Assembly (NCBI GenBank): GCA_033065855.1
Contig: JAVXUO010002792.1
Location: forward strand, 62,001-126,000
Length of the DNA: 64,000 nucleotides
Direction: 5' to 3'
Source of the DNA: Escallonia rubra
Lineage: Eukaryota; Streptophyta; Magnoliopsida; Escalloniales; Escalloniaceae
The notes beneath the pieces were generated by a model. It did no database searches. It was not told the origin of the DNA and saw only the letters and a program-made list of their open reading frames with translations. Of this stretch, positions 1,745 through 63,737 are shown in pieces (position 1 is the first letter of the stretch; each line of letters starts with the position of its first letter). Both the position numbers and the translations under genes were made by a program.

Positions 1745-4700
1745 TCCTGGTAAATTTCTCAAGGATAAAATGAATTAGTCAATTACGCTAATAAAATAAA
1801 TGCTCTAGTTTCCCAAGCGTGCCAAGCATCTAATCACGTCTAGTACCTGTGGTAAGGGACAAAGCAAACAAATAAGGGGTGAGCTCGAATAGCCTAGTAA
1901 GGGGTAACCAAATGGGAAGCAATACAACAATCCAAAGTCCAAAACAAAGCCAAAACTTTGATGAACAAGTGATGACAATTGACAACGATACAATTAAGAC
2001 GAAACAAGACCCAAATCGAACTCAAAACCCGAAGGTACGAATTGCATACCGGTGGCGTGATAGCTATTGTCGAGAGGGCTATCCAAAAGTCAATAGGTGA
2101 CTACAAAAGTTACGAAGTACCTACAAAAGTCACTGAAGTGACTACGAAAGTTTTAAAGACACCTCTTTTATAAAAAGAGAGGGTTGTGCTTCTTAATTAT
2201 CAAATGCAAATTAATTAGGCAAATATGTCAAAAAGGTATGCAAATACGAGTCTAATCCAACAAAGCAGCCAATAATAGTTTAACGACCAAATCAACTCTT
2301 TTGACCTCATATAGTTCAAAATTAGCTGTTCATTTACCTAAATGCCCTTTTAAGTGCCATAAAAAGGCAGTTTTGTCATTTCACACACACAAAAAAAAAA
2401 AAAAGTTAACCATAATAAGTATTATCTCTTTCCCCTTTCCTATATCTCATTTCTTCCCCCTTACCTGTCAAAATGCTGCCACCTTCGCGCTGCAAGCTAT
2501 TGCCGCCGCCATCAAGCCATAGTCCTCATCCCTATTCCTCTATATCTCCTCTCCTCCACTTCCTCTTCCTCTGCTAACCACCACCATCATTGAATTGCTA
2601 CCACCACCAAATCATCACTAACACTACAACTGTCCCACTAACCCAACACTGCCATTACAAATCACAGACGCCACCAATACTGTAATTGCCCACCACCCTT
2701 GAATTGCCCACCACCGAACCGCCACCAATACTGTAATTGCTGCCATCAACACAACACAGCCACAAAACAAAACTCCTTGTCTACTTTCTGGGATAATTGA
2801 GGACCAATAAAAGATTACTGAAGCAATGTGCTTTTAAGGCATTACAGCACGGAGCAATCCAGTTTGAATGTGTCGGACAAATCAGAATGCAATTTGGAGT
2901 TCAACAACTCTTGAAAAGGAATTTCTCATAACCTTTATCTTAACAAACCAGAAAGAATAGCTTAATAGAGATCGAATTCGGTATCAAAATGGGAAAGTCA
3001 CTTTTTCCTGTATAGTAGATGGAGATGGATTGCACTCGTCTTGACTCCCGATCTACATGTCTCGTATCCTTAAGCCATAAGGTTAGGCACTTCCCATAGG
3101 CAGAATGTGAGAGTTGTATTATTTGGTAGTTGTGGCTGCACAGAAGAAACGATTCATGAAATGAAGATGCTGCTCTTTCTTATTCCAGACTAGCAGTTTT
3201 GAAATGAATTCCAGCTTAGGGCAGGAATCAACCTCACCGCATGAAAAATTACAAAGTTCCTTACCTTATGTTCAACAATTCGGCAACGTCAAATCCCAGC
3301 GCAACTGTGACGTGATTGCACTCAAGGACCACCTAATGCCAAAAGCCAAAAAGTACACTTAAGGCTGAGTCAACTTCCAAAGAGACTATACTTTTCGGAT
3401 TTACGTAACCTATAGCGACAAAAATCCACTACGAACTAGTTAGTGGGTTGAATTCCAATTTAGGGCGTGCCTTGGACAAAATGGCAAGGAGCAACAGAAA
3501 CAGCAACACGTGCCAAGCCTCTAATCCGGGTAAAGCTCACAAGAATAAAAATAATTTGTTCATTTACACTAATAAAATAAATGCTCTAGTTCCCCAAGCA
3601 TGCCAAGCCTCTAATCACGTCTACTACCTGCGGTAAGGGACAAAGCAAACAAATAGGGGGGAGCTTGAATAGCCCAGCAAGGGGGAACCAAACAAGAAGC
3701 AATACAATAATCCAAAGTCCAAAACATATCCAAAACTTTGACGAGCAAGTGATAGCAATTGACAACGACACAATTAAGACGAAACAAATGTGCAAAATTA
3801 TCATTAAGTGGTTTAAATGACCCAAACCAAACACAAACCCGAAGGTACGAAACACATATCGGTAGCATAGTAGCCGTCGTCGAGAGGCCTATCCAAAAGA
3901 CACTAAAAGTGACTTCAAAGTCACTAAGTGACTACAAAAGTTACTAAGTAACTTCAAAAGTCACGTAAGTGACTACAAAAGTCTTACAAAATCCTCTTAT
4001 ATAAAAAGAAAGGTTTCTGCTTCTTAATGATCATATACAAATTAATAAGACGAATATGTCAAAAAGGTATGCAAGTATGAGTCTAATCCAACAAAGCAAA
4101 ATCATTACAAAACAAAACTCAGTGTCTATCATTCTGGGATAATTGAGGAAGAATAAAGATTATCGAAGCAGTGAGCAATTTAGTGGGGTAAAGACGCTAA
4201 TGGTATGAACGTTGGCATGACCCAAGCCAATTGAAGTTATTGGCATGACATAAGCCAGCTAAAAATAAACCAAGTTGACACCTAACAATTTACAAAGAGA
4301 AGCAAACTGCCTATGAAGCACCGGTGCGGCACTTAGGGTGAAGCTCCGGCACCGGATACGCGTCGGGTGTGGGTGCGCCTTGGGTGCGTGTCCAACTTTT
4401 TTTTTTTTAAATCTTAAATATCGGGTGCGGCTCGGGTGCGTATCCAGCGATCTGTGGCCATCGGGCAGATTGGTGACCACCGGCCACTCCAGTGACACCG
4501 GCAAGGACCCTGAAGAGTGGGGACTGGAGAGAAGAAGTAGAAGCAGAAGAAGGAGAAGTACTTACCGGCGATGGCGACGGCGTGCGGCCAGAGAAGAAGA
4601 AGAAGAAGGGTCAGTCGGTCGATGTTTTCTATGTGGTCGATGTTATCTATGTTACACATAGTTTGTTATAATCTCAGATAACCGACTTGTATTGGGCTTT

Positions 4701-8274: not shown

Positions 8275-11200
8275 AACGAAGATTGATTTTTCCGCTGGAG
8301 GAGAATTCTTCCACTGTATTGGGCAGCACGTAATGGTGAAAGGATTTACATCAATTATGCCATGGTTGGCAGTGAATGAGAAAAATCTTCCTCCGTTTAC
8401 AAGAGGGGAGAAAGTTGAGATTTCAAAGGTTGAGCTATATGAGGTACTGTGGTAAGCAAAATGTCTGTACATTTGGCTTCCTTTTCAGCACTCTTTAATG
8501 GAGCTTTATGTTTTGTTTGTTTAGTTTTGAGTTTCCTTGTTGTTCTTCATTAGTAGTTTGATTGCATGCTCTCTCCACTGTTTCGAATTGATAATTAAGC
8601 AAAATAACAATTGGTGGTTGTGGGGTGGTACTTGATATGTGCATATGCTCCATGGCTAGGTTGGTGGCACTACTTCTAATATGATTTGTATGATTACTAC
8701 TTATATATGTGTATGTGTATGCGCGTGTTTGTGTGCCAAAATGGTATTGGCAGCTGGCTTTATTGTAATTTTCTAGCACCTCATCATTTTTTATTTACTC
8801 CTACAAATAAAGAACTTTTGAATTTTGTAGGGGAAAACTGTGCCTCCGGATTACCTTAGTGAGAGTGAGCTCATCTCCTTAATGGAAAAACACGAAATCG
8901 GAACCGATGCATCTATTCCTGTCCACATCAACAACATAAGTGAACGCAAATATGTACAGGTTTGCAAACACTCTCTGCAAATACTTTGGACTTTTTATCA
9001 CGTGCTGGCATGAATGGAGAAATAATATGTAGAATCTTCAGTTCGTTCAATATATGGTTGTCCATCGTGCCTTGGAACTGCAGGTACAGGCTGGAAGGAG
9101 GTTGGTCCCAACTGCTTTAGGTATAAGCCTAATAAGAGGTTATCAATGCATAGATCCAGATCTCTGTTTGCCTGACATCCGGAGTTTCATAGAGCAACAA
9201 ATTACTCTTGTTTCTAAAGGTCAAGCAGATCATTCTCTTATTGTGCAGCATGTACTTGAACAATTCAAACAGAAGTTCAGCTATTTTGTTAAGCAGGTGA
9301 TGACATGTCAAATTTTTCACACTTATCTTGTTTGTGGTTGCATATAAGAAGTTAGTCCGTACACTCACGCGCGTGGGGCCCCTAAAAATCTAGTGCTAGA
9401 AAGAGCTCCATTTCTCTAGCTGATCTCTACCCATCAAATTAACTGGCGGAGGCCGAGATCTACTTTTTAACCTTTCTAAAACTCATCAACTGCCATTTTT
9501 TCTAGAAGTTTGTTACATTTTCCTAGAGGGTTTATTACACTTAGCATGCATGTTATTTGATTTTTTTTTTGCATTCTACCTATATAGTATTTCATCTACC
9601 CAAATGCCCTTGTCGAGCACCTTTGCAAGTCAACCGCCTCAGATCCCTGATGTGTGCTTCTCCATAGAACTCCACGGCCCCTAAATACCCAGCTCAGAAT
9701 TGTGATCTTGAAAAAGCTCTAGCCTTCTTTTCCTTCTTCATTTTTTTCGATCGGTGTGTGTCTGCGTGTGCGGTAGGTGTCTATTTGGTGTCCAAATCTT
9801 CAACCTTCTATTGAACATTATGATTTTGTTTCATTGATCTGTTGAAATCCCGATTGATAGCGATTCTGTTCTTATGGTGGTCTCTGAATCTGGTTGATGC
9901 CTACAGTTCATCCTTTATTTTCGATTTTTCGTTGTTTTTGTCGATCTCAACAAACCAATCCTTAAACGCTGGTCTGGAGTTTTGGTGGGTTGAAACTGTG
10001 AGATTGTAGGTGGCCGAACGAAGGTGATGGACGGCGGTGGACTAGTGGTATTGAGATCATTAGCGGTGCTACTTGCTGAGGTAGTTTGATGGTGATGAGA
10101 TCGCCGGCCGTCATAAATAGTTGCAAAGATATTAATCGATGATTTAGATGGTGGAAGAGACCTTTGAAGGAAATAGGACAGAGGAGAGAAAAGAATGGTT
10201 GTGTTGTGTTTTTTAGTGGCACCATTGTAATTAAGTTAAGAAAATTGATGGAAAATTCAAAGGGCAAAAATTTTGTACTTATATTTTGTTAGATCTACCA
10301 CCTAAGAAAGGGACTGTGTAATTTTTAGATGGGTCATCTTGTTGAGTGTAATAAAGCAAAACCTCAATGTGGGTTCAGTTCCTATAGTGCTCCTGCCTTT
10401 TTCCAAAAATTCCGAAAGCGTGTCCCCCACCCCACTAGTCGGCCTCATCTTTTTCCTATTCTCAATCACATCACGCAATTCTCTCTCTTCCCAATTTAAC
10501 TCCTATTTGTTTTTCTTCTTAAGCACAAATCTCCATCCAATTTTTCAACACTACAGATACGCGCAAAACAAAACCAGATTTACAATCATAAGTTTATGGT
10601 CTCATTGGTCTCAAACTGAGTTTTGGTGTTGATCCACACCCTGATGGTGGCGGGTTCTGAGGCGAGGTTTCCAAGGAAAGGGTGGTGACGCAGGTAAAGT
10701 GCGGAGGTGGGGATAGGGGTGTGGTCGGCATATATCATGGTGGTTGAGGGGGGCTGGAGGGTGTTAGTGTGGTGGTGATGGCAGCTGAGGAGGCCTGAGA
10801 ACCGAGACTTGGCTCTGATTCGTTGGCAACAACATTTGAAAAATACTTTGAACCCGCAATAATTCACTATACTGGCTTTGATTATTAACTTCCACTGACA
10901 TTCATCTTTGGAATGTACCTAGATGTTTCACACGTTCATTATTCTTTTCTTTACAGAGTATTACTTTTTGGAGATCATAAAAGTGGGCTCGTTTATGAGA
11001 AGGGCAATTCTATGCCATTCGCTAAAAAAGGAGGCAGTTGGTAGTAAACTTGATTCATTTTTTGAAAAAGGAACAAAAAGTCTATCTTGGCCGTCCGCGT
11101 TATGGTTGAAGATTAGCTAGCTAAAATGTGGATTATCTAGCGCTATATCTGCATAACACACACGCTGACATACACTTGTAGATATACGTACGAACATAGA

Positions 11201-14200
11201 TCAGTTTTACTTGTGATTGAAGGGTTAGTTGGAAGTCATGGGTGCTTTGAACAGCTATCTGCGTGCATAACTCAACACATAATTTCATACACTAATTAGC
11301 ATCAGTGGGATTGAGATTCACTTATTCCATGTTGTACATATCTACATGTGTTGTTACTTGATATTTGGGCAAGCTATATGTAGATATGTTCAACATGGAA
11401 TAAGTGAATCTCAATCCCACTTATGCTAATTAGTGTATGAAATTATGTGTTGAGTTATGCACGCAGATAGCTGTTCAAATCACCCATGAATTCCAACTAG
11501 ATAAATTTTACTTGTGATTGATGGGAATATGTATCCACTCCATAAGAAATTGTATCTCTAGCTTAGATCAGAGATTTTGAGGGCAAAATATGGTGATCCA
11601 GGGTAAGAGTTCCAGTCCTCGTGCAGTACTGCAGTTGTATCTCTGAAACAGATAATTATTGCACCTTAGCATATTAGAACGATAAAAGTATGAGCATGAG
11701 GATTTCACCGCTCCAACCACTCTTGAGTGGCTTTATCTCTGTGCTCTCAACGTCCTCCGCACATCTGATTAGAGGAACTTTCTTCTTCAAATCCAAATCA
11801 GCAACAGTCTCAAAGTCCAAGATACACTCAATGGGATTGGGATGGTGCGACATTACCGAAGGAGTGGTAGAAACAGGATGCAAAGCAGTGGAATTGAAAG
11901 TAACACCTGCAGACAATGTGGGAGGCTCAACAGTGCCTCGATAGGGTAACAAGTCCTCCATGTTGAACACCAGGTTAATGCTCATATTAGTTGGTAAGTC
12001 GAGCAAATAAGCCTTTGGGCCTTGTCTAAGAATGATACAGGATGGTCAAATGGCTAGAGTGTGCATCTTTTTGATGTAATTGCGAGGGTAATGCTTTGGG
12101 CGTATACAAGCAAGAAGTCTCTTGCATTAAACTCAACTTTCAGCAGTGATTGCATTACTCAACTCAATACGACAGCATTACTCAACTCAATACGACGATG
12201 GATTTTAGCATGAAAAGCATGGAAATTTGAAGTTGGTCAATTGACAATCCTTAATCAATCCGATCGCTTCAAAAATTATAAGTTGCTCAATTCCTAAAAT
12301 CAAGGTAAAACAAACCATGGAATTAATTTGTCTTGGATCGGTGAGAAATAAATCTTCCAATTCCCTTGTGTTCGATTATTCCCATCAACACGTTTGCATC
12401 AGTTAGCAGTCAGCTATGATTTCCTTATAATCGTTTCTAGCCAGATGGATGCTAAACTATGCTTAATATTGGAAGGTCATGCCAATTGCCAAAACGGTGC
12501 TAATCACAGGGGCTCAATAGGTGTATAATTAATAAATTAAGTGCACTTCTTATTTTGTATGCCTTTGCCCCTCCTCCTCCAAAGAAATCAAAATCCCAAG
12601 TAAAGAGAGAAGCCCTGAAACATTCAAGCCTTTATTGTTCAGCACTTAATCAATTTTTTCGCTACTGAACTTATGGGCCTGTTTTGGTGCAGATAGAAAA
12701 CATGGATGTACTGTTTGAAGCACAGTTTTCTCCACTCTCAGATTCTGGACGTGCGCTTAGCAAATGCGGAAAATGCTTGCGGTACATGAAGTACATCTCT
12801 ACCATGCCCTCACGGCTATACTGTAGCACCTGTGAGGAAGTTTATTATCTTCCTCAAAAGGGTACAATAAAGGTAATTTATTTATTACCTTACGTTATAA
12901 ATCCTTGTAGTGTAATGTGAACTTCTATGCTAACATTATAGCATCTTAGTGTAGATATTGGATGTTTTGCAAGATTCTGCTTTTCCACATTGTGCAAGTT
13001 GTTAACCCTATTTTATTCAGTAATCAGGTCACATGATGTTTGTGGACTTTGACTTTCAGGGTTGAAACTGCAAGCATTAGTGTCATTATCTGTAAAATTT
13101 TGGGGGCATTTTTATGATATCCCCGAAAGTTCGTTTCTGGTAGAAATTTCTTGTTTCAAGATTTTACTATTTGAAGATGCCCAAACCCTTTAATAGCAGC
13201 CCTTGAGCCGAAAAACAAAGACAACTCCTCGAAGACCCCAAAAGATTAATCCTAAACCCTAGTTTTAGATTTCCTCCCTACCAACCCATTTTATATGACC
13301 ACCACCAGTAACCGATACCACCACCAAAGAAGAAATCACCATACATGGTGGAGTGAAAAAATTTGGGGCATGAATATTAAGTCATATGTTCAATCATTTT
13401 AGAGTATACTTCTCAGATACTTCGACCTGAATATGATTGTTGGGATAAATACACTAAAGTACTATCATGCATGTCTCGTATTCCAAGGTTCTGAATTTGT
13501 ACTTAGATTTGTTTGATTGATTTTTCCTTTTCAAGTAGTTTTTTTCCTTAAATACTGACTAGCTTTTACAAACCTTAGAAATGTTTCCTTTCAAGGAATC
13601 TTGATACAAGGTCTGATTTGACCTTTTCCTCAGTGTTGGAACACGGGGATTTGATGTAGGCAGTTCACCAATCCGTAGGTCATTCAAAGATGTCGATTCA
13701 ATCTCGCTAAAAGTATGAGCTAGGTGTTCTTTGGTGTGTATCTTGTGTAAAGCAATTGCAATCTACATTTAGGGTGCGTAGAGTGCTTGAACCCTTCTCT
13801 TCGCATAACTTAGTCCCAAGCCCCTTCTTTTGGTTTTCTGCATGTGAGTTTTTTTTTTGAGTTCAACAGAATCTGTGGGGCTATTCGTTAAGGCTGTCCA
13901 CCTTTTGTTTTTTGTAATGATGGCAAAAAGGATTTCCTTTTAATGTTCGTTTATAATATTCTGTTTTTGTTTTGGAGAAAATTGATCCAAACAATAGAAA
14001 GAGGTATTTTTACAAATTTTGATCAAATTTGATCCTTTGTCAGAGAAAAGCAAAAAAAAAACGCTATATACTCTCTTTCTTCCCGCTTTTCGACACATCA
14101 CATCATGTCTCTCTCTCTCTCTCTCTCTCTCAGAGTACTAGCACCACCGTAAAGGACCACGAAGAACCACCATTAACAACCACCTCCATAGCTACCAACG

Positions 14201-20200: not shown

Positions 20201-23200
20201 ACACACACATGAATATATTTTTCGCAACCACACATTTTGTTTCCCAATGTGTAAATGTAAGTTTAGATTAAATTTATGACTTAATGTTTATTAAACGCAT
20301 TACAAAAAAACTAATTAGAGAAGGGTAGGGTTGTCATTGGAATAACTAACGGAGGGTAGAACCGGAAATGATTACAAAATTAGTAATTAATAATAGTATT
20401 TAAGAAAGGATAGGAAAATAATAGTATTTATGAAAGGGTATGATTGTTATTGGAGTGATTAACGAAAGACAAAAATATAATAAAATGATTTACAAGATTC
20501 ATACTTTAATAGGTAGTATATATTTAAGCATTCAGAGTGTCTGCAGTTTCATTCCATCAAACTTGCAGGGCCAAGGTCACTCTAAAGTAACAACCACAAA
20601 CAAGGTGTTTTTGATTTCTTTTTATTTTGACACCTTTTTTCTTCACTTCCCAATAATCTAAGAATGCATAGGAAGTTCTTTTTTTTCCTTCCCTTCTTTT
20701 TGCATCTAATAAGATGCTCGTAACATAGGCTTTGTTTATTAGGGTAAGCTGGTCACCTAAGTATTCTATGTTTAATTTTGGTGATTGTCGTGTGTGTGGG
20801 CAGCTGAAAACGTGGAATCTATTGATGCTTCAGACTACTCAAAGACGGGAATGAAAACAGCTGAACTAGTGGGCAACTTTATGGAGACAATAAGGGTGGA
20901 AAATATGGTTGGCAATAGTGCTTTGGCTAATTGGCTGAATACGGAATTTTTTTTTACTCTGGTTTAAAATTGATAGCACCCCTACCCCCCTCCACCTCCT
21001 CATAGGATTTTTTTTGGAAACAACGTACCCGTACTTGTATTAGACACCATGAGCATCCCACGGCGTGGAATTAATGTTAAAGAAATCTTCAAGTTGCAAA
21101 GCATGAAGAGAATATTTCAATGGGGAATAATTTTGAATGCTTATATTTTTACTCGCCCTGGTGTGGTGAACTTGATGAGAAAATGCACCAAAAATGCTGA
21201 GTTACTTCAGCTTGCAAAACTCGATTTGCAACAGCCTTCATTCCTTACGAAGGATTTGCAACCAGAAAAGTAACTTATGGAAGATGTTTATCTTAGAAGG
21301 GTGGGCTGCTTAGTATGTGGGCAAAGGAGCCACAAAGCAGAAGAGTAAGTGATGTCATCTTGATGGCCTCTCTTGGAATAATGCTGTGTTTGCCTTTAAG
21401 GTGGCAATCCTCTTGTTCGCGTGCTCAGATGGCCGTTGGTGAGAGGAAGCCTGCAATGGGATAAAATCTATGAGGCCACTGGTAGAGCTAAAGAAGCCAT
21501 TGATGGGTCCTTCAATGGCGAGGAAGCAAAATATGAGCATGTTTTTCAAATCATTGATGCAAGGTGGGATGTTCAACTCCATAAGCATTTGCTCGCTGCT
21601 GTTCCTAATTGAATCCAGAAATCCTTTTGGGAATAGAAGTATTGGTGACGATGAGGTCGTGAATGGTTTGTGCATTAAAAAGTTGATCCCATCTCTCTCT
21701 AAACAAGACCGTAGTATAGACGAGTTAGCTATGTACAAGGTACAGAAGGGTTGTTTGGGAATTCTGTGGCAATTAGGCCGAGCTAAAAAAGCACCGGGCA
21801 CATCTTAAACCCTTAGTACCTTCAGCTCTAACTAGTATTCAAAAAGCATTATGTAAGTATATGTATGGCCAAACAGCTCCAAATTTGCAAGTAAAGTTCT
21901 GAGCCTCACTTGTAGTGCATAAGGTTGTGAACAGAATTGGACTGTCTTTGAACATGCAAGTACATATTTAATTACTTCTAAGTGTGTGTGTGTATATATA
22001 TATATAGGGAGTTGATCCGTTGACCGCGTGGGCAACTTGGGTTAAGTTGCCAGCGCGATCTTGTCGTCCATATGCGATTTATGGACGGTCCAGATCTTTT
22101 TTTACATTTTTTTAATGTAGCGGATGATTTTTGACAAAAAAACCCTTCTGCTTGAGGGAGTAACAGGATGCTACAGTGCCCATCTGCTCCATTATGGAGC
22201 GGATGATGGATGGGGCTGCTATAGTGCCTTCTCTTCCCACGAAGTGCTTTCTCTTTATGCAAATGAAATGGCAGTTTCCACCAAGAAGAAGAAGAAAACC
22301 AGAGGCTGTTAGAGCAGGGAGTGCCATTTCATTCGTGAAAAGAAACCATTGGTAATGAGAGATTCCACATGCCATTTTATGTCTTGTTCTTTGCACTTCC
22401 ATTAGTTGCGTAAGAGTGAAAAAACCCTTGATTGAAGGTAAATGTGAAGGCTTGAATGGGTGCTGGAGAATGTAAGGACTCAAAACAATGTATATATGTG
22501 CGCGTTGTGTGGTAATTGGTGAGAGCTGATATGAAGATATGGTGGTTGCGACAACTAACGGTAATTCCCTCGTGCCTTCTCTCAGAGCACGGGGAGCAGC
22601 ATTTTTTCTTCTAGTACGGTGGGTATGGGTAGATAGTTCAAAGAGAGTTTCGGTTCTTCCAAATTGCCACAGACCCAGCAAATTCTCTCCCTCTTTTCCT
22701 TACTCTCAATCTCTATAGCATCCTAAAGCCTGGTTCAACAATACACAGCCTCTCATCAGATCTAGAAATTCAGATTAGATGGAGTGCTATAAATAGTGAC
22801 TTCCTGGTTTACGCGGTTTACGAACCTGGCACTTCTTGCTCTCAGCCTCTGGTTTTCTTCTTCTCTTTGATGGAGACTGCCGTTTCATTTGTGAAAAGAA
22901 AAGTCACTGCCATTTTATTTGTGAAAAGACAAGGCAGCTCCTTCCATCATCCGCTACATTATGTAGCGGATGGGTACTGTACCATCCCGTGACTCCCTCA
23001 AGCTGAGGTAATTTTTTCAGAAAATCGTCCGCTACATAATGTAGCGGATGTACTTAAAAAGACAAGGCCAGATTGCGGGCAACTTAACCCAAGTTTCCCG
23101 CATGGTCAACGGATCAACTCCCATATATATATATATATGGACTGCCAAATCAGGACCGTCCATTGATTGCGTATGGATATATATTTCCATGTACATGTGT

Positions 23201-27265: not shown

Positions 27266-27678
27266 TAAGATTTTTTTCCAGAAGGGATAAAGTCTAGAAC
27301 TTTCGCATACAAAAGCTTAAGAGAGAAAGAGAGCATGAGATAAAAGGTATAGACAATTATGTTAGTGTTTTATGAAACTATATGGTACTTCATATGGCTT
27401 TGGGCTATGGTATTAATAAGCTAGGGTAATAAGGTATCAGGTAAAATTACGGTGGCAACGATAAGTATGAGAGAATTAAGGGGTGGGTGTGGCGGTATTT
27501 GTTTTAGAGAGAATTCAAAAAGAACTGGATAAAACATAAGCAATACTCTGATTTGCCTAAAATTAGGAAGAGAGTAAATAAATACAGCTAAATTTCAGGT
27601 TCCATGGAACTATTTGAATTTGAAATGGTTATCAAAAAAGGAAACTATCAATTAGCAAATGGCGTAAAATTGTGTTAA

Positions 27679-28972
27679 GGGGTAAATGCACTTTGCCCCC
27701 CTGTACTTCAGGCCTGTTGAATTATGACCCTCTATTCTTTAAAAAGTTGCACTAAACCTCCTTCTACTCGTTAAAATTGGGCAAATTGGACGGTTTTCAT
27801 CAAAATTAACATACTTCTTGGGCGGGAGTTGTTTGATAAATTTTAATGACCAAAATACCCTTTTTATTTAACACACACAACATGCACACACACTGAACAC
27901 ACGCACACACTCACAAGAACCCACAACCCCACACACACTCACAGGAACCCAAACCCCACACACCGAATGCACAATTACATATGTGTGGTTAGTGTGTTTC
28001 AGATCTGATGATTTTCAGTTTGTTTGGTTGTAGATCATTAACGATCCAGAGACTGGGAGATCAAGGGGGTTCAGATTTGTGACTTTCACCGTCAATCAGG
28101 CCCAATATTGTGGTGGCGGTGGAGGTGGTTTCCACAACGATGGCCGTCGTGAAGGAGGAAGTGGTGGTCGTCGTGATGCTGGCGGCGTTGGGTATGGTGG
28201 GTACTGCGGAGGTGGCCGTTACTCGAGAAATTACGGCAGAGGTGGCCGTTACTCAAGGGGGTTCAGATTCGTGACTTTCACCGTCAATTAGGCTTAGTCT
28301 TGTGGTGGCGGTGTCATGGCGGTGGAGGTGGTTTCCGCAGCGGTGGCCGTCGTGAAGGAGGAAGTGGTGGTCGTCACGACGCTGGCGGAGTTGGGTATGT
28401 GGGTAATGCGGAGGTGGCCGTTACTCGAGAAATTACTGCATAGGTGGCCGTTACTTAAGGGGTTCAGATTCGTGACTTTCGCCGTCAATCAGGCCCAGTC
28501 TTGTGGTGGCGGTGGCACGCCGGTGTAGGTGGTTTCAGCAGCGGTGGCCGTCGTGAAGGAGGAAGTGGTGGTCGTCACGACGCTGGCGGCGTTGGGTATA
28601 GCGGTTACGGCAAATGTGGGTACAGAGGGCCTGGGTTTGTGACCGTGGATGGTGTTGTTTGTGTGTGTGTGGGGTGCAACATTTGGTTTGGGGGGGGGGG
28701 GGTGTTGAACGTGTATGTGCAGGTGAGGGTGGGTTGGTGGAATATGGGTGTGTGGGGGGAGGGATAGCTGATGAAGAAAGGTTAGAAAATGGCAAGAGTT
28801 TGAAAATTTTGTGGATAAAAAGGGGTACTTCTGACATTTCTAATGAATCTGTTACGCCCGTTAGAATTTGCCTAATTTTGACGAGTAGAAGTAAGTTTAT
28901 TGTAATTTTTTAAAGAATAGGGGGCCATAATTCAATCGGCCTCAAGTACAGGGGGTCAAAGTGCATTTACCC
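27679..28972. mobile_element. Pack-MULE-like element carrying a GRP gene fragment
   Basis: Terminal inverted repeats of about 108 bp (27679-27787 and 28865-28972) start GGGGTAAATGCACTTTG on the left and, reverse-complemented, GGGTAAATGCACTTTG on the right, with high similarity throughout. The flanks carry a direct repeat ATTGTGTTAA at 27669-27678 and 28973-28982 (9 or 10 bp depending on where the end is placed), as expected for Mutator-like elements. No transposase is present. Between the ends lies a piece of a glycine-rich RNA-binding protein gene (see 28034-28640), so this fits the Pack-MULE definition: a non-autonomous Mutator element holding a captured host gene fragment. Confidence 0.85.
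28034..28640 (+). pseudogene. Captured glycine-rich RNA-binding protein fragment, triplicated
   Basis: After TTGTAG, a typical intron end, the sequence reads IINDPETGRSRGFRFVTF, the second half of an RRM (RNP1) as in plant GRP7/GRP8-type proteins. In that family an intron lies just before this point. It then jumps to TVNQAQ and a Gly-rich tail with GGRREGGSGG and Tyr/Arg, so about 25-30 residues of the RRM are missing. The block from FRFVTF through the Gly-rich part occurs three times, starting near 28070, 28262 and 28463 (spacing 192 and 201 bp). Stops and frame changes separate the units. Presence of the intron-exon boundary argues for capture at the DNA level rather than through mRNA. Not expected to make a working RNA-binding protein. 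Confidence 0.8.
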
Positions 28973-29089
28973 ATTGTGTTAAAGTAAAGAAAAAAAAAAA
29001 ACAGAAAAGAAAATCATGATTATATGACTTTTAGGGAATGACAATGCTCTTTTAATTTTTATAAGTGTCCAACTATGTAAGAGCTAACG

Positions 29090-31964: not shown

Positions 31965-33661
31965 TGTAACGCCCCGAACTCGAGGGTCCGGACGTGTTCT
32001 CAACCAAGATCCGAACACGTAAAAAACGTAACTATTATAAAGGTAGGGCAGAGCATCAAATCCATTAGCGACAAAATATCTCCATTAAAACTTAATTAGA
32101 ATATTTCCTCTTCCAAATCCACTAAGACCAAATAATAACCAACCTAGTAGCCATTACAAAAATTTCAATTTCAATTTCAATCTCAAATCAAATTACCCAC
32201 ATCCGGGTAAAGTTCTCAAAATGAATTATATTATTCAATTTCGCTAACAAAACCGATACTCTAATTTCCCAAGTATGCCACGCATCTAATCACATCTATT
32301 TCCTGTGGCAATGGACAAAACAAACAAATAGGAGGTGAGCTTGAATAGCCTAGTAAGGGAAAACCAAATAGGAAGCAAATCCAATAATTCGTATTCCGAG
32401 ACAAAGCCAAAACTTTGACGAACAAGTGATAGCAATTGGTAATAATGCAAGTAAGGCAAATCAAATATACGAAATGATCATTAATGGCCATAGGCCCAAA
32501 GCGAACACAAAAGTCCGAAGGTACGAAACACATACCGATAACATAATAGCCGTCATTTTGAGGACTATCCAAAAGCCACTAAAAGTGACTACAAAAGTTA
32601 CTAAGCCACGAGGTGATTATAAAGCAACTACAAAAGTCACTAAGTGACTGCAAAAGTCACCGAAGTGACTACAAAAGTCTTAAAGACTTCTTTTTTTTTT
32701 TATCAAAATGTTGTTTAACTTAATGATCATGTACAAATTACGAATTGCGAACTCAATAGTAACAAAGGCAAATACGAAGCAATTTGGACAAAACTCCAAA
32801 GTTGTACAACAACTAGAAGGTGATATTATGTAACGATTCCTTACCACAGCAAGAAGTACGAAATCCTTTACAAACAATTAAGTCAGGCCATACGAAATAT
32901 ATATAGCTCGATTAAATCAGAAACAAAACAATGAGCTGTGCAATTTCATAGGTGAGATCGCATGTCCAATCTCACAATTTTAAGTAAAGAAAACGTAAAC
33001 CCTTTGCCACAGCAAGAACGCACCAACCCTTACCTTAATCAAGTTTTTTGGTAATGAAATCCTCAAGCTCCACCTTAGAACCCAAATAGCTTCCCAAGCC
33101 TTCTCCCCTCTCTCTCTCCCCTCCTCAGCCTTTACAAAGAGAAGCAAGAGAACCCAAATGAAAAGGGCTAGAAAGGAAAAATGAAGCTATTTAAAGGATA
33201 AGCCCTAAGTTGACAAATTACACTAACACTCTCCAAACTTTTGATACTTTTTCAAAAAGCACCCAAAACTTTCTAATGTTTATAAAAAGGGGATTTTACA
33301 CTTTCATTTAAAGGAAAGAGTATTCCTTCGACTGAATTTTTCAGACGCGAAATAATCTCCTTCGCCTTTGCTCTCTTTTCATTCGACTGAATCTATTTCA
33401 TTCGACCGAAAATATCATTCTATTCGACTGAATCCTTCCATCCCCTTTTTTCTCGATTTAAAATACTTTTCATTTGAAGCGAACACTATTCATCCGACTG
33501 AAAATACTATTCATTCGAAGCAAATACTATTCATGCCATTCGAATATATCTTTTAGAGATGGTTTAACGATCGATTTTCTATAATGATTTATCCCTTAAT
33601 TTATTTTTCAACAAATATAATCCTTCTTAGCATAAAAAGAGGGGGGGAATGTACCATTACA
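31965..33661 (-). mobile_element. Damaged LTR of the same family
   Basis: The left edge TGTAACGCCCCGAACTC is clear at 31965. The block 32270-32700 matches 1810-2150 and 3590-3990 closely in order: AATTTCCCAAG, the CATCTAATCAC block, GGTGAGC, GAAGGTACGAA and repeated GTGACTACAAAAGT. A block near 33240-33290 (CACCCAAAACTTTCTAATG) matches 5975-6000. The right end is uncertain: a TTACA occurs at 33657-33661, but the flanks (TATAG, ATTTA) do not match, so the copy may be truncated or recombined. No internal domain is attached. Confidence 0.6.
33327..33545. repeat. Interspersed TTCGACTGAA motif cluster
   Basis: Exact or one-mismatch copies of TTCGACTGAA occur at 33327, 33382, 33401 (TTCGACCGAA), 33423 and 33493 (TCCGACTGAA), mixed with CATTCGAAGC and CACTATTCAT. 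Spacing is irregular (19-70 bp). It lies in the tail part of the damaged LTR. Confidence 0.75.
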
Positions 33662-36355: not shown

Positions 36356-38046
36356 CTAACTACCAACATTTGAGGAAGATGCATAACCATAAGCAGCGAC
36401 GTGTTTAGACACAACACCATCTTCGTAGTCCATGGGTGGTTCCTCATTTAGATCCCAAAAGATAAACTTATTGCCCGTGTCACTGGCACTGGTTTCACCA
36501 GGTGATGTCACATGGCTCGAAGGAGCGTCTACGGCCTGACCGTTCCAATGGGACCTCTGGTGACCTCCGAGAGCCTGACCAGTGGGGAAAGTCTTGTTGC
36601 ATATCTTGCATCGGTGTGTGCTTTCCACCGTCTTCAGGACACACTCCATTTCGCATTCTTTGTTTTCTTCTACTGGGTTTGGCTCATCTTCTTCTTCATG
36701 AAGCCCATTTGTAATGGAAAGCTTGAATTTGTTGTGGCTAGATTTGTGACCTCCAAGGGCCTGCGGACTTGGAAAGTACATGCTACAAGATGTACATTTG
36801 TACTTACCTGGAGTACTCGTGGTTGCTATCGTAACTGGCTTCTTCTGATGACTCGACTCAAAATTCAATGCCGCCTTCTCCTTTTTCTTCTTCTTGTCCT
36901 TCTTAGTCAATGCCATTTTGCCACTAGAATTCCCCGTATTGTTGTCGAAACTAATTATGCCAACAGGAGCTTGACTTTCCCTACTTGTAATAGGGGTTAG
37001 GCCTTGATACAATGATGCGATACTACTATCACTGAAAAAAGCCAATTAAAGAAGAAATTCTGTTAACTACAAAACCTCTAAGCAAACAAACAGGAAACAC
37101 AAACTCAATAGAGTGATCACGGTAAACCTAATTGAAGAATTATTGGAATACGAGATAGAGGATACCTTGCATATGATTCGTCTGAAGGCATCAGATCTTT
37201 CCCTTTGGTTTCATCCAATATCCTAGTAACATTCAAGGACGTACAGGGAAAATCAATTCTCCTCTTTCTGGATCTAGAAGTGCCGCTTGCATGCTCGATT
37301 TCGCTGTTCGTGTCCTCAACACAGCGCTTTTCCAATATGCTTGACAACTTGATAGAGTCTGTATCAACGAGTTTTAAGAGATTAGTTGCAGCCTCTCGTT
37401 CCTCAAAAAGCTGCTCGCTATCCTCAGACTCCGAGCTTGAGCTATCAGACTCAGTTGTCTTTAGGCCACGCCTGGCCATCGCAGACCAGCTCGGCAAAGA
37501 CTTTACCAGATCCATTACGGGCGGTGGTGTCTTCGTAGCACCAGCTGAAAGCACGTAGTTCCCCTCATGATTGACATCTAGAAGAGGCAGGTCGTCATCT
37601 TCAACTTCATCCTGATCAGACAGAGTTGGATTAATGCAGTGTTTGGCAGAGTGTGGAGGGGGTTGGATTCCCCTCCACTCCCTCTCCGGATGGCACCTCA
37701 TGTGCCCAAACAACGACTTCATCGACACAAAGTCCTTTCTGCAAATCTGACAAGTCGGTTTCTTGAACTTGTTTGGATGGTTGTCGTTCTTATGTTTGAG
37801 TTTCCTCAGGGCTGCTAATTCTTCTTTTGCTGCTTGGAGGTGAATTCTGCGATGACCACCAAGAGCCTTGCCTGACTTGAACTCTTTCGAGCACTCTGGA
37901 CAAATCCGAGTTGTTGGAACCCTTTGATCGGGGCTATCTTTGATCGGATCCTCCTCCGCCTCAAATCCTCCAACCTTGAGCTTGATGACCATTTTGGGTA
38001 ATATTCCAGATATTTGTTCACCCTTTTCGATCTGGTAATCCTCCAT
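36356..38046 (-). CDS. C2H2 zinc-finger protein with four fingers and EAR motif
   Basis: Two coding exons on the minus strand: 38046-37166 (ATG at 38046) and 37031-36356 (stop TAG at 36358-36356). The 134-bp intron is GT-AG and splits a Ser codon; the joined frame gives 518 residues. Four C2H2 fingers have the plant C-x2-C-x12-H-x3-H spacing: residues 49-69 (KALGGH), 99-119 (KSLFGH), 373-393 (QALGGH) and 435-455 (QALGGH). Basic stretches (SRSRKRR; KKDKKKKKEK at 337-346) suggest nuclear import. Near the end, WDLNEEPP (about 486-493) matches the DLNxxP form of the EAR repression motif, which recruits TOPLESS-type corepressors. So it is most likely a DNA-binding transcriptional repressor. The two finger pairs are about 250 residues apart, wider than in typical ZAT proteins. 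Targets cannot be inferred and I do not recognise the exact orthologue. Confidence 0.92.
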
Positions 38047-38420
38047 TGAACAACTAGAATAAACAGAATTTCAACAGAAAAAGATTTAGGGCACTCGAGC
38101 GGAAAAAACCTAGAGATAACTAAAGGGACCCGTCACTCAGAACCCTAGATAGAGACTAGCTTGTGCAAAACTGTTGGGTTAAAAAAGGCCCGCTGCTTCA
38201 GCTTAAAAGAATTAAAAAAAACAAATAGAAAAACAAAAAATCATAACAAAGGAAAGAAGCTCGAAAAATCAGCTCCCAAAAAAGAACCAAGATTTTTTAT
38301 ACAAAAATTTAAATCAAATCAGTGAGAAGATACATACAGGAGCTGGTAACAGGGAACCAGAAGAGAGGGAGAACAAGTTTAAGAAGATAAAGAAGAAGAA
38401 AGGAAATAAAAGTCATTATG
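38047..38420 (-). promoter_or_regulatory. 5' leader of the zinc-finger gene, probably with an intron
   Basis: Reading from high to low coordinates, a pyrimidine-rich leader (about 38420-38338) is followed by CCT/GTATGT, a good donor, at 38337. It ends at TTATTCTAG (acceptor at 38055-38054), seven bases before the ATG. This suggests a 284-bp 5' UTR intron, common in plant regulatory genes. No convincing TATA box is seen upstream. Inference from splice signals only. Confidence 0.45.
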
Positions 38421-62222: not shown

Positions 62223-63647
62223 TCTAAAATTTCGTATCGTATGGCTCCAGCTGAGATAAAGGAGCTGAAGAAGCAGTTGCATTAGTTACTCGACTAGGAA
62301 TTCATACGTCACTAATGTATCCCTGTGGGGTGTCCTAGTCCTTTTTGTGAAGAAGAAGGATGGCACCATGCGACTCTCTATGGATTACAGAGAGCTGAAC
62401 ATGATCACGATCCATAATAAGTACCCATTGTCCCACATCGAAGACTTTTTTATCAGCTTCAGGGTGCTTGTTGGTTTTTGAAGATCAATCTGAGATCTTG
62501 GTATCATCAGTTGAAGGTGAGAGAGAAGGATATATCGAAGAAAACGTTCTAGATACCCTATGGGCAATACGGGTTCCTTCTCTTGCCTTTTGGTTTGACG
62601 AACGCTCTTGCAGCATTCATGAATTTAATGAACAGGGTTTTCAAGGATTATCTGGACCAGTTTGTCATCATATTCATCGATGATATCTTGATATTCTCTA
62701 AGTCTAAGGAGGAAACAAGGAGCATGTGAAACTGGTATTACAGCGGTTGAAAGATCACAAGCTATATGGGAAACTCTCAAAGTGTGAGTTTTGGATCTAG
62801 CAGGTGGTGTTCCTTGGACATATTGTGTCTAGGGATGGGATTTATGTGGACCCGACAAAGATCAAGACAGTGACCGAATGGCAGAGGCCTAGTACAGTGA
62901 AAAAGGGTTGTAGTTTCTGGGTCTAGCTGGTTACTATAAATGGTTCGTGGAAGGGTTCTCTAAGATTACGGGACCGTTGACCCGATTAACATGCAAGAAT
63001 GTGCGTTTCGTCTGGTCTGATGATTATGAGTCCAGTTTTCAAAAGCTTAAATAGAGACTAGTAACCACACTAGTTTTGACACTACCGTCAGGCTCAGGAG
63101 GGTTTGTAATTTACTGTGATGGCTCTAGGAGAAGGCTTGGTTGTGTTTTGATGTAGCATGGAAGGGTCATGGCTTACGCCTCGAGGTAGCTAAAGAATCA
63201 TGAGCATAATTACCCGACTCATGACTTGGAATCAGAAGTAGCGACATTTTTCCTTGAACCTCTAGAGGTACCATTTGTACTGTGAGACTTGTGAGATATA
63301 CACACAAGAGTCTCGAGTATATCTTTACTCGGAAGGAGCTTAACATGAAACAACAGAGATGGTTGGAGCTTTTGAAGGATTATGAATGCTCAATTCACTA
63401 CTATCTCGATAAGTCCAATATAGTGGCTGATGCTTTTAGTAGGAAGAATACTGGGAATCTGGCAACATTAATTATGATGCAGCCCCAGTTGTTGGAAGAG
63501 ATAAGGAAATTAGACCTAGAGATTAGACGTCCAGGATATGATGCGATGCTAGCAGCTATGCAGGTTCAACCCCTATTGTTCAGGAGGATTAAGATTGCAC
63601 AAGCGAGCGACCTTGAGATCACTAAAATTATTGAAAATATGAAGAGT

Positions 63648-63737
63648 GGGAAATAGACTGAGTTTAGGATTGACTCTGAGGGAAATAGACTGAGTTTAGG
63701 ATTGACTCCAAGGGAAATAAACTGAGTTTAGAACCGG
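63648..63737 (+). repeat. 32-bp tandem repeat, 2.8 units
   Basis: Units starting GGGAAATAGACTGAGTTTAG lie at 63648, 63680 and 63712 (the last partial). They interrupt the pol reading between RNase H and integrase. Confidence 0.85.

Follow-up and report, generated by a model that had tools for sequence, protein, structure and literature searches.

Structure of the element

Positions 27679 to 28972 of the window (here, the entire 64-kb stretch of DNA that was analyzed) most probably, with a likelihood of about 85%, represent a decayed, non-autonomous Mutator-like transposon of the Pack-MULE type that carries a tripled fragment of a glycine-rich RNA-binding protein (GRP) gene. The 1,294-bp element, to which no strand was assigned, was delimited by its terminal inverted repeats (TIRs) and direct flanks. 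Its size, its ends, the target duplication, and the gene fragment that it carries all agree with this type. Capture and transposition are inferred from this anatomy.

The TIR cores are 108 bp long, lying at 27680 to 27787 on the plus strand and at 28865 to 28972 on the minus strand. In a gap-free comparison, 95 of the 108 positions were identical (88%), and the element begins with GGG and ends with CCC; a repeat finder reported the same pair as 111 nt at 87% identity. Past the cores, gapped alignment identified only a loose likeness with many gaps, the CA-rich left subterminal part (plus strand, 27788 to approximately 27975, an estimated limit) weakly resembling the reverse complement of its right counterpart. 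Immediately outside the repeats, exact copies of ATTGTGTTAA were found at 27669 to 27678 and 28973 to 28982. This putative target-site duplication (TSD) is AT-rich and can be read as 10 bp or, equally well, as the 9-bp TTGTGTTAA. The original prediction had described TIRs of about 108 bp and direct flanks of 9 to 10 bp, and both descriptions hold. An exact search of both strands of the 64 kb found ATTGTGTTAA twice, at the two borders of the element only. At the base composition of the window, two given 10-bp words would agree by chance approximately 1.7 times in a million.

The TIRs were also compared with 1,000 random pairs of stretches drawn from the window at the same distance from each other. 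The element itself scored 151 and 997 of the 1,000 random pairs scored ≤34; the higher scores came from start 27664, which is the studied element (drawn twice; 123), and from start 21911 (97). As only inverted-repeat elements exceeded 34 among the random pairs, the TIR pair is far from chance. No further copies of the TIRs were identified in the 64-kb window. Searches of viral and bacterial contigs with a 26-mer from the TIR (0 and 0 matches) and of a phage collection (no match) are uninformative for a plant, the source suggested by the GRP cargo and by C2H2_6-type zinc fingers in the window. Five TIR strings of 16 to 24 bases had no match in the literature, and five of 11 to 16 bases matched 16 publications, none of the titles listed being on plant transposons. 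Between 27660 and 28990, 26 stop-to-stop frames were listed; the longest encodes 124 amino acids, and none reaches the size of a transposase. Scans of the window for tRNAs and Rfam families returned no hits.

Two other inverted-repeat structures lie in the window. The first, at 21993 to 23137, has arms of at least ∼290 to 310 bp, carries GGGAGTTGATCCGTTGACC near its ends, and adjoins TA repeats; its left arm is unlike the left TIR of the element described above. The second is a near-perfect hairpin at 11226 to 11499, with 122-nt arms that are 97% complementary around 30 nt and a flanking direct repeat, TTTTACTTGTGATTGA. The predicted RNA fold of 11200 to 11530 has a free energy of −214.8 kcal/mol (z, −29), a value that none of 100 shuffles reached, and the hairpin may represent either a young MITE or the precursor of a small RNA.

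A probable captured gene fragment

Judged by homology, the cargo is the latter half of the RNA-binding domain of a GRP7/8-type protein followed by a glycine-rich tail, as originally predicted. The plus-strand frame at 28034 to 28291 reads IINDPETGRSRGFRFVTF, then TVNQAQ, and then a glycine-rich stretch. Its first part, IINDPETGRSR (28034 to 28066), corresponds to 4c7q from residue 38 and to AtGRP7 from residue 39. Comparison of the cargo with the PDB gave 51 matches up to an E value of 1. The best was 2mpu (RBP1; E value, 0.00014), which matched from its residue 40 and which we take to be a cyanobacterial protein. It was followed by 2cjk, a nuclear polyadenylated RNA-binding protein 4 that is not glycine-rich by name (E value, 0.0002), and by 4c7q, an RNA-binding glycine-rich protein, presumably of tobacco, matched from residue 38 (E value, 0.00046). 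Pfam RRM_1 was detected weakly, under its curated cut-off (E value, 0.014; 15.7 bits versus 20.7).

When an AtGRP7 sequence was used as the tblastn query, the unfiltered search aligned 28034 to 28150 (E value, 7.6e−5) with a 23-residue gap between VTF and TVN, and the search with a low-complexity filter aligned 28034 to 28102 (E value, 1.9e−5). This AtGRP7 sequence aligns to 4c7q without gaps from residue 4 to 87, a range that covers the 23 residues missing in the cargo. The sole other row, at 4288 to 4344, had an E value of 0.25 and contains a stop. The GRP reading did not continue beyond the inverted repeats anywhere in the 64 kb by tblastn. The cargo also differs from its surroundings in composition: between 28011 and 28650, limits chosen by the analyst, GC content was 56% versus 38% for the window, and the CpG observed/expected ratio was 1.09 versus 0.60.

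These results bear on whether the fragment is cargo or the remnant of a resident GRP gene, broken in place and by coincidence enclosed by a pair of inverted repeats or by nested insertions. Such a local pseudogene could be imagined because the identity of the inverted repeats is incomplete (88%) and because inverted-repeat pairs are not rare in the window, two others having been seen. However, neither exon 1 nor any further GRP sequence was found by tblastn elsewhere in the 64 kb, and the exact target duplication sits directly against the repeats; we consider this explanation very improbable.

Three internal units

The captured sequence is present as three plus-strand units with heads at 28067, 28259, and 28460, giving spacings of 192 and 201 bp; the spacing of 203 reported by the repeat finder conceals an 11-bp gap. 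Units 1 (28067 to 28258) and 2 (28259 to 28459) each comprise the RRM end with an inner deletion and the glycine-rich tail. The GRP frame is open in the former, and the latter has two stop codons and a frameshift. Unit 3 (28460 to approximately 28599, where repeat homology ends) shares the same head and is frameshifted; it matches for ∼140 bp, and from ∼28600 a different glycine-rich-like tail follows, translated as YSGYGKCGYRG (28600 to 28650, the right limit being a guess), which presumably derives from the tail of the parent. Units 2 and 3 were recognized by DNA identity to unit 1 and were not found by tblastn alone. Of the three units of about 200 bp originally described, all three copies are present and the third is cut short. 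The sequence encoding IINDPETGRS, with the intron-like border that precedes it, occurs before unit 1 only.

All three units carry the same VTF/TVN-type joint (VTF/AVN in unit 3), where a stretch of 23 codons is missing relative to GRP7 and 4C7Q. Because all three share the joint, the deletion preceded multiplication, in agreement with the order first proposed. The joints between units are also alike, reading CGTTACTCAAGGGGGTTCAGATTCGTG between units 1 and 2 and CGTTACTTAAGGGGTTCAGATTCGTG between units 2 and 3, and the exon head at that place reads ATCAAGGGGGTTCAG. A short shared TCAAGG-like word was probably what directed the first duplication. Eleven bp that are absent from unit 1 are common to units 2 and 3, which places these two out of the GRP frame and leaves unit 1 in frame. 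This difference, together with the shared junction, suggests that growth from one to three units took two successive duplications, refining the internal triplication previously put forward to a probable two-step process. In the simplest order, one duplication would have been followed by a frameshift in one copy and then by a second duplication of the frameshifted copy. The order is an inferred one, leaning mainly on the single shared 11-bp difference, since the comparison has no outgroup and the units differ by near-equal amounts in their shared 140-column head (14, 11, and 10 differences). A simple tandem duplication would predict a tail for unit 3 like that of the others, so a further, later deletion has to be assumed.

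K2P distances between units were 0.094 (1 and 2), 0.108 (1 and 3), and 0.089 (2 and 3), whereas that between the inverted repeats was 0.132. As TIR divergence is above the 0.089 to 0.108 among the units, the units may have multiplied after the element inserted. Dating in years was rejected, since the two TIRs of an element may already differ when it inserts and no rate is available.

Coding capacity and decay

The 85-codon open GRP frame contains no methionine. A complete RRM with a start codon is absent from the cargo, which lacks methionine, the first half of the RRM, and the 23 residues. The two stops in unit 2 are both TAG and stand opposite CAG or CAA in the other units. Changes from the majority of the three units were counted in 126 aligned columns per unit, forming two gap-free blocks that exclude the 11-bp region and the tails. 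The 15 changes found, a small number, comprised 6 silent, 7 amino acid-changing, and 2 stop changes; without constraint, and with a weight of 4 for each transition and 1 for each transversion, 29%, 69%, and 2% would be expected. This near-neutral mutation pattern suggests no sign of selection on a protein. Taken with the stops, the frameshift, and the lack of methionine in the open GRP frame, it argues against a protein, and the element most likely has no protein function now.

There is little to recommend a living new gene in which the tripled glycine-rich frame is expressed, or a putative regulator that damps the parental GRP gene through antisense or small RNA. The spacings of 192 and 201 bp are multiples of three and the 23-codon deletion is in frame relative to GRP7, and one report credits Pack-MULEs with a potential for regulating parental genes (PMC3310237). 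Against a gene stand an open frame without methionine, the frameshifts in units 2 and 3, the two stops of unit 2, and near-neutral changes. Either role would be surprising. It is similarly doubtful, to the point of being speculative, that capturing elements go on reshaping what they carry and that microhomology-driven tandem multiplication of a glycine-rich repeat, in multiples of a codon, once gave the Pack-MULE a longer repeated glycine-rich frame that was used before decay.

Unit-specific changes numbered 18 in 132 columns. Ten were C>T or G>A, of which nine lay in CG or CHG contexts (read by eye). Methylation-type decay was not retained as a firm claim, given that 42 of 81 consensus C/G positions are already in CG/CHG contexts and that ancestry was taken as the majority of three. 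The high CpG ratio of the cargo (1.09) is a further argument against prolonged, heavy decay of this type.

Proposed capture and origin

Exon homology begins immediately after TTTGTTTGGTTGTAG, which resembles a 3′ splice end (TTGTAG). Upstream lies a T-rich, plus-strand stretch resembling the 3′ end of an intron (27990 to 28033, the left limit being a guess) that ends in TTTTCAGTTTGTTTGGTTGTAG, with TAG directly before the homology. In GRP genes the intron would lie at the codon where the homology of the cargo starts, and the intron-like stretch was probably captured together with the exon. The earlier reading, that the captured piece starts after TTGTAG, applies to unit 1 but not to units 2 and 3, which start inside, at SRGF. 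A retro-copy, in which the fragment arrived via RNA and was then enclosed by transposon ends, would likewise start sharply at one codon if truncated, yet it is very improbable, as the T-rich stretch has the look of an intron left unspliced and unit 3 is not followed by a run of A.

In the literature searched, which included excerpts of PMC5663106 and PMC11021534, the codon position of the GRP intron was not found; intron number and alternative splicing are given there, with a single intron stated for 76.92% of the members of branch I (PMC11021534).

Under the Pack-MULE reading, a Mutator-like element would have acquired part of a GRP7/8-type gene by DNA-level capture, from the 3′ end of an intron into the beginning of the next exon and including the glycine-rich tail. 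Approximately 69 bp inside the RNA-binding domain (a length relative to GRP7 and 4C7Q) would have been lost before or during capture. A tandem duplication may then have fused a CTCAAGG-like word of the glycine-rich tail to its counterpart in the exon head, ATCAAGGGGG. Three units could have arisen afterwards through slippage or unequal exchange, and both events may have preceded or followed insertion. Insertion at this site by a transposase from elsewhere would have created the 9- to 10-bp target duplication, and the inserted element would subsequently have decayed.

Comparison with known elements

The Pack-MULE-like anatomy proposed at the outset is upheld by the long TIRs, the target duplication, the GRP fragment inside, and the lack of a transposase-size frame. 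As described in an excerpt of PMC3310237, MULE hallmarks are target duplications of 9 to 11 bp and TIRs of typically 100 to 500 bp; the exact ATTGTGTTAA on both sides and the 108-bp TIRs at 88% identity fall within these ranges. Pack-MULEs are described there as non-autonomous elements carrying genes or gene fragments (PMC3310237), and this element has a GRP-type exon and a longest listed frame of 124 amino acids. In barley, Abermu MULEs have GGG...CCC ends, also borne by this element, and lie in TA-rich sites with duplications that are mostly of 9 bp (PMC9168764). Rice and maize Pack-MULEs have a stated preference for GC-rich sequence (excerpt of PMC3310237), in agreement with the 56% GC of the cargo against 38% for the window.

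The tomato Pack-MULE PM-ZIBP, as portrayed in the same excerpt (PMC3310237), shares long TIRs, a 9- to 11-bp duplication, a gene fragment, and the absence of a transposase frame. Its tandem-TIR form is said to be 1,300 to 1,400 bp, a size like that found here; it is the TIR that is duplicated in PM-ZIBP, whereas here the captured piece is multiplied. Ssk-FB4 Pack-MULEs of Drosophila similarly carry a gene fragment between MULE-type ends with 9- to 10-bp duplications, and differ in their animal host and TIRs of ∼700 bp (excerpt of PMC8277862). They may constitute a functional protein family, of which the present element shows no sign, and tandem duplications are among the structural variations reported for FB4 elements (PMC8277862, in part). 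Tandem rearrangement inside such elements has therefore already been published, for plant TIRs (PMC3310237) and for fly FB4 (PMC8277862), at least in the portions cited. Relative to GRP7/8-type genes themselves (AtGRP7/8; 4c7q), the second RRM half and glycine-rich tail are shared, but the copy in the element lacks exon 1 and 23 codons and is tripled and frameshifted.

A limited search of the open-licence literature found no published Pack-MULE with a tripled captured fragment, from a GRP gene or otherwise; the sole match combining Pack-MULE with glycine-rich RNA-binding was, by title, on transcription factor families. By itself, the element leaves the general view unchanged, being a neat but unexceptional gene-capturing transposon of a known kind. 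As a compact case, it reveals in one sequence that the inner deletion came first and the multiplication second. Sister copies, if present in the host, might allow the steps to be dated and reveal whether glycine-rich cargo is prone to growth in Mutator-like elements.

Other features of the window

A dispersed repeat occurs in three copies (1765 to 2267, 3546 to 4098, and 32221 to 32740) that are 62 to 88% alike, depending on the stretch. Retrotransposon-like fragments were identified at 11677 to 12045 (Tf2-1-like SH3; E value, 3.6e−5) and 63258 to 63653 (RNase H-like; E value, 0.00046), both under the curated cut-off. On the minus strand, two adjacent frames at 36359 to 38070 carry C2H2_6 zinc fingers (E values, 7.5e−20 and 1.3e−16) and are possibly one plant zinc-finger gene.
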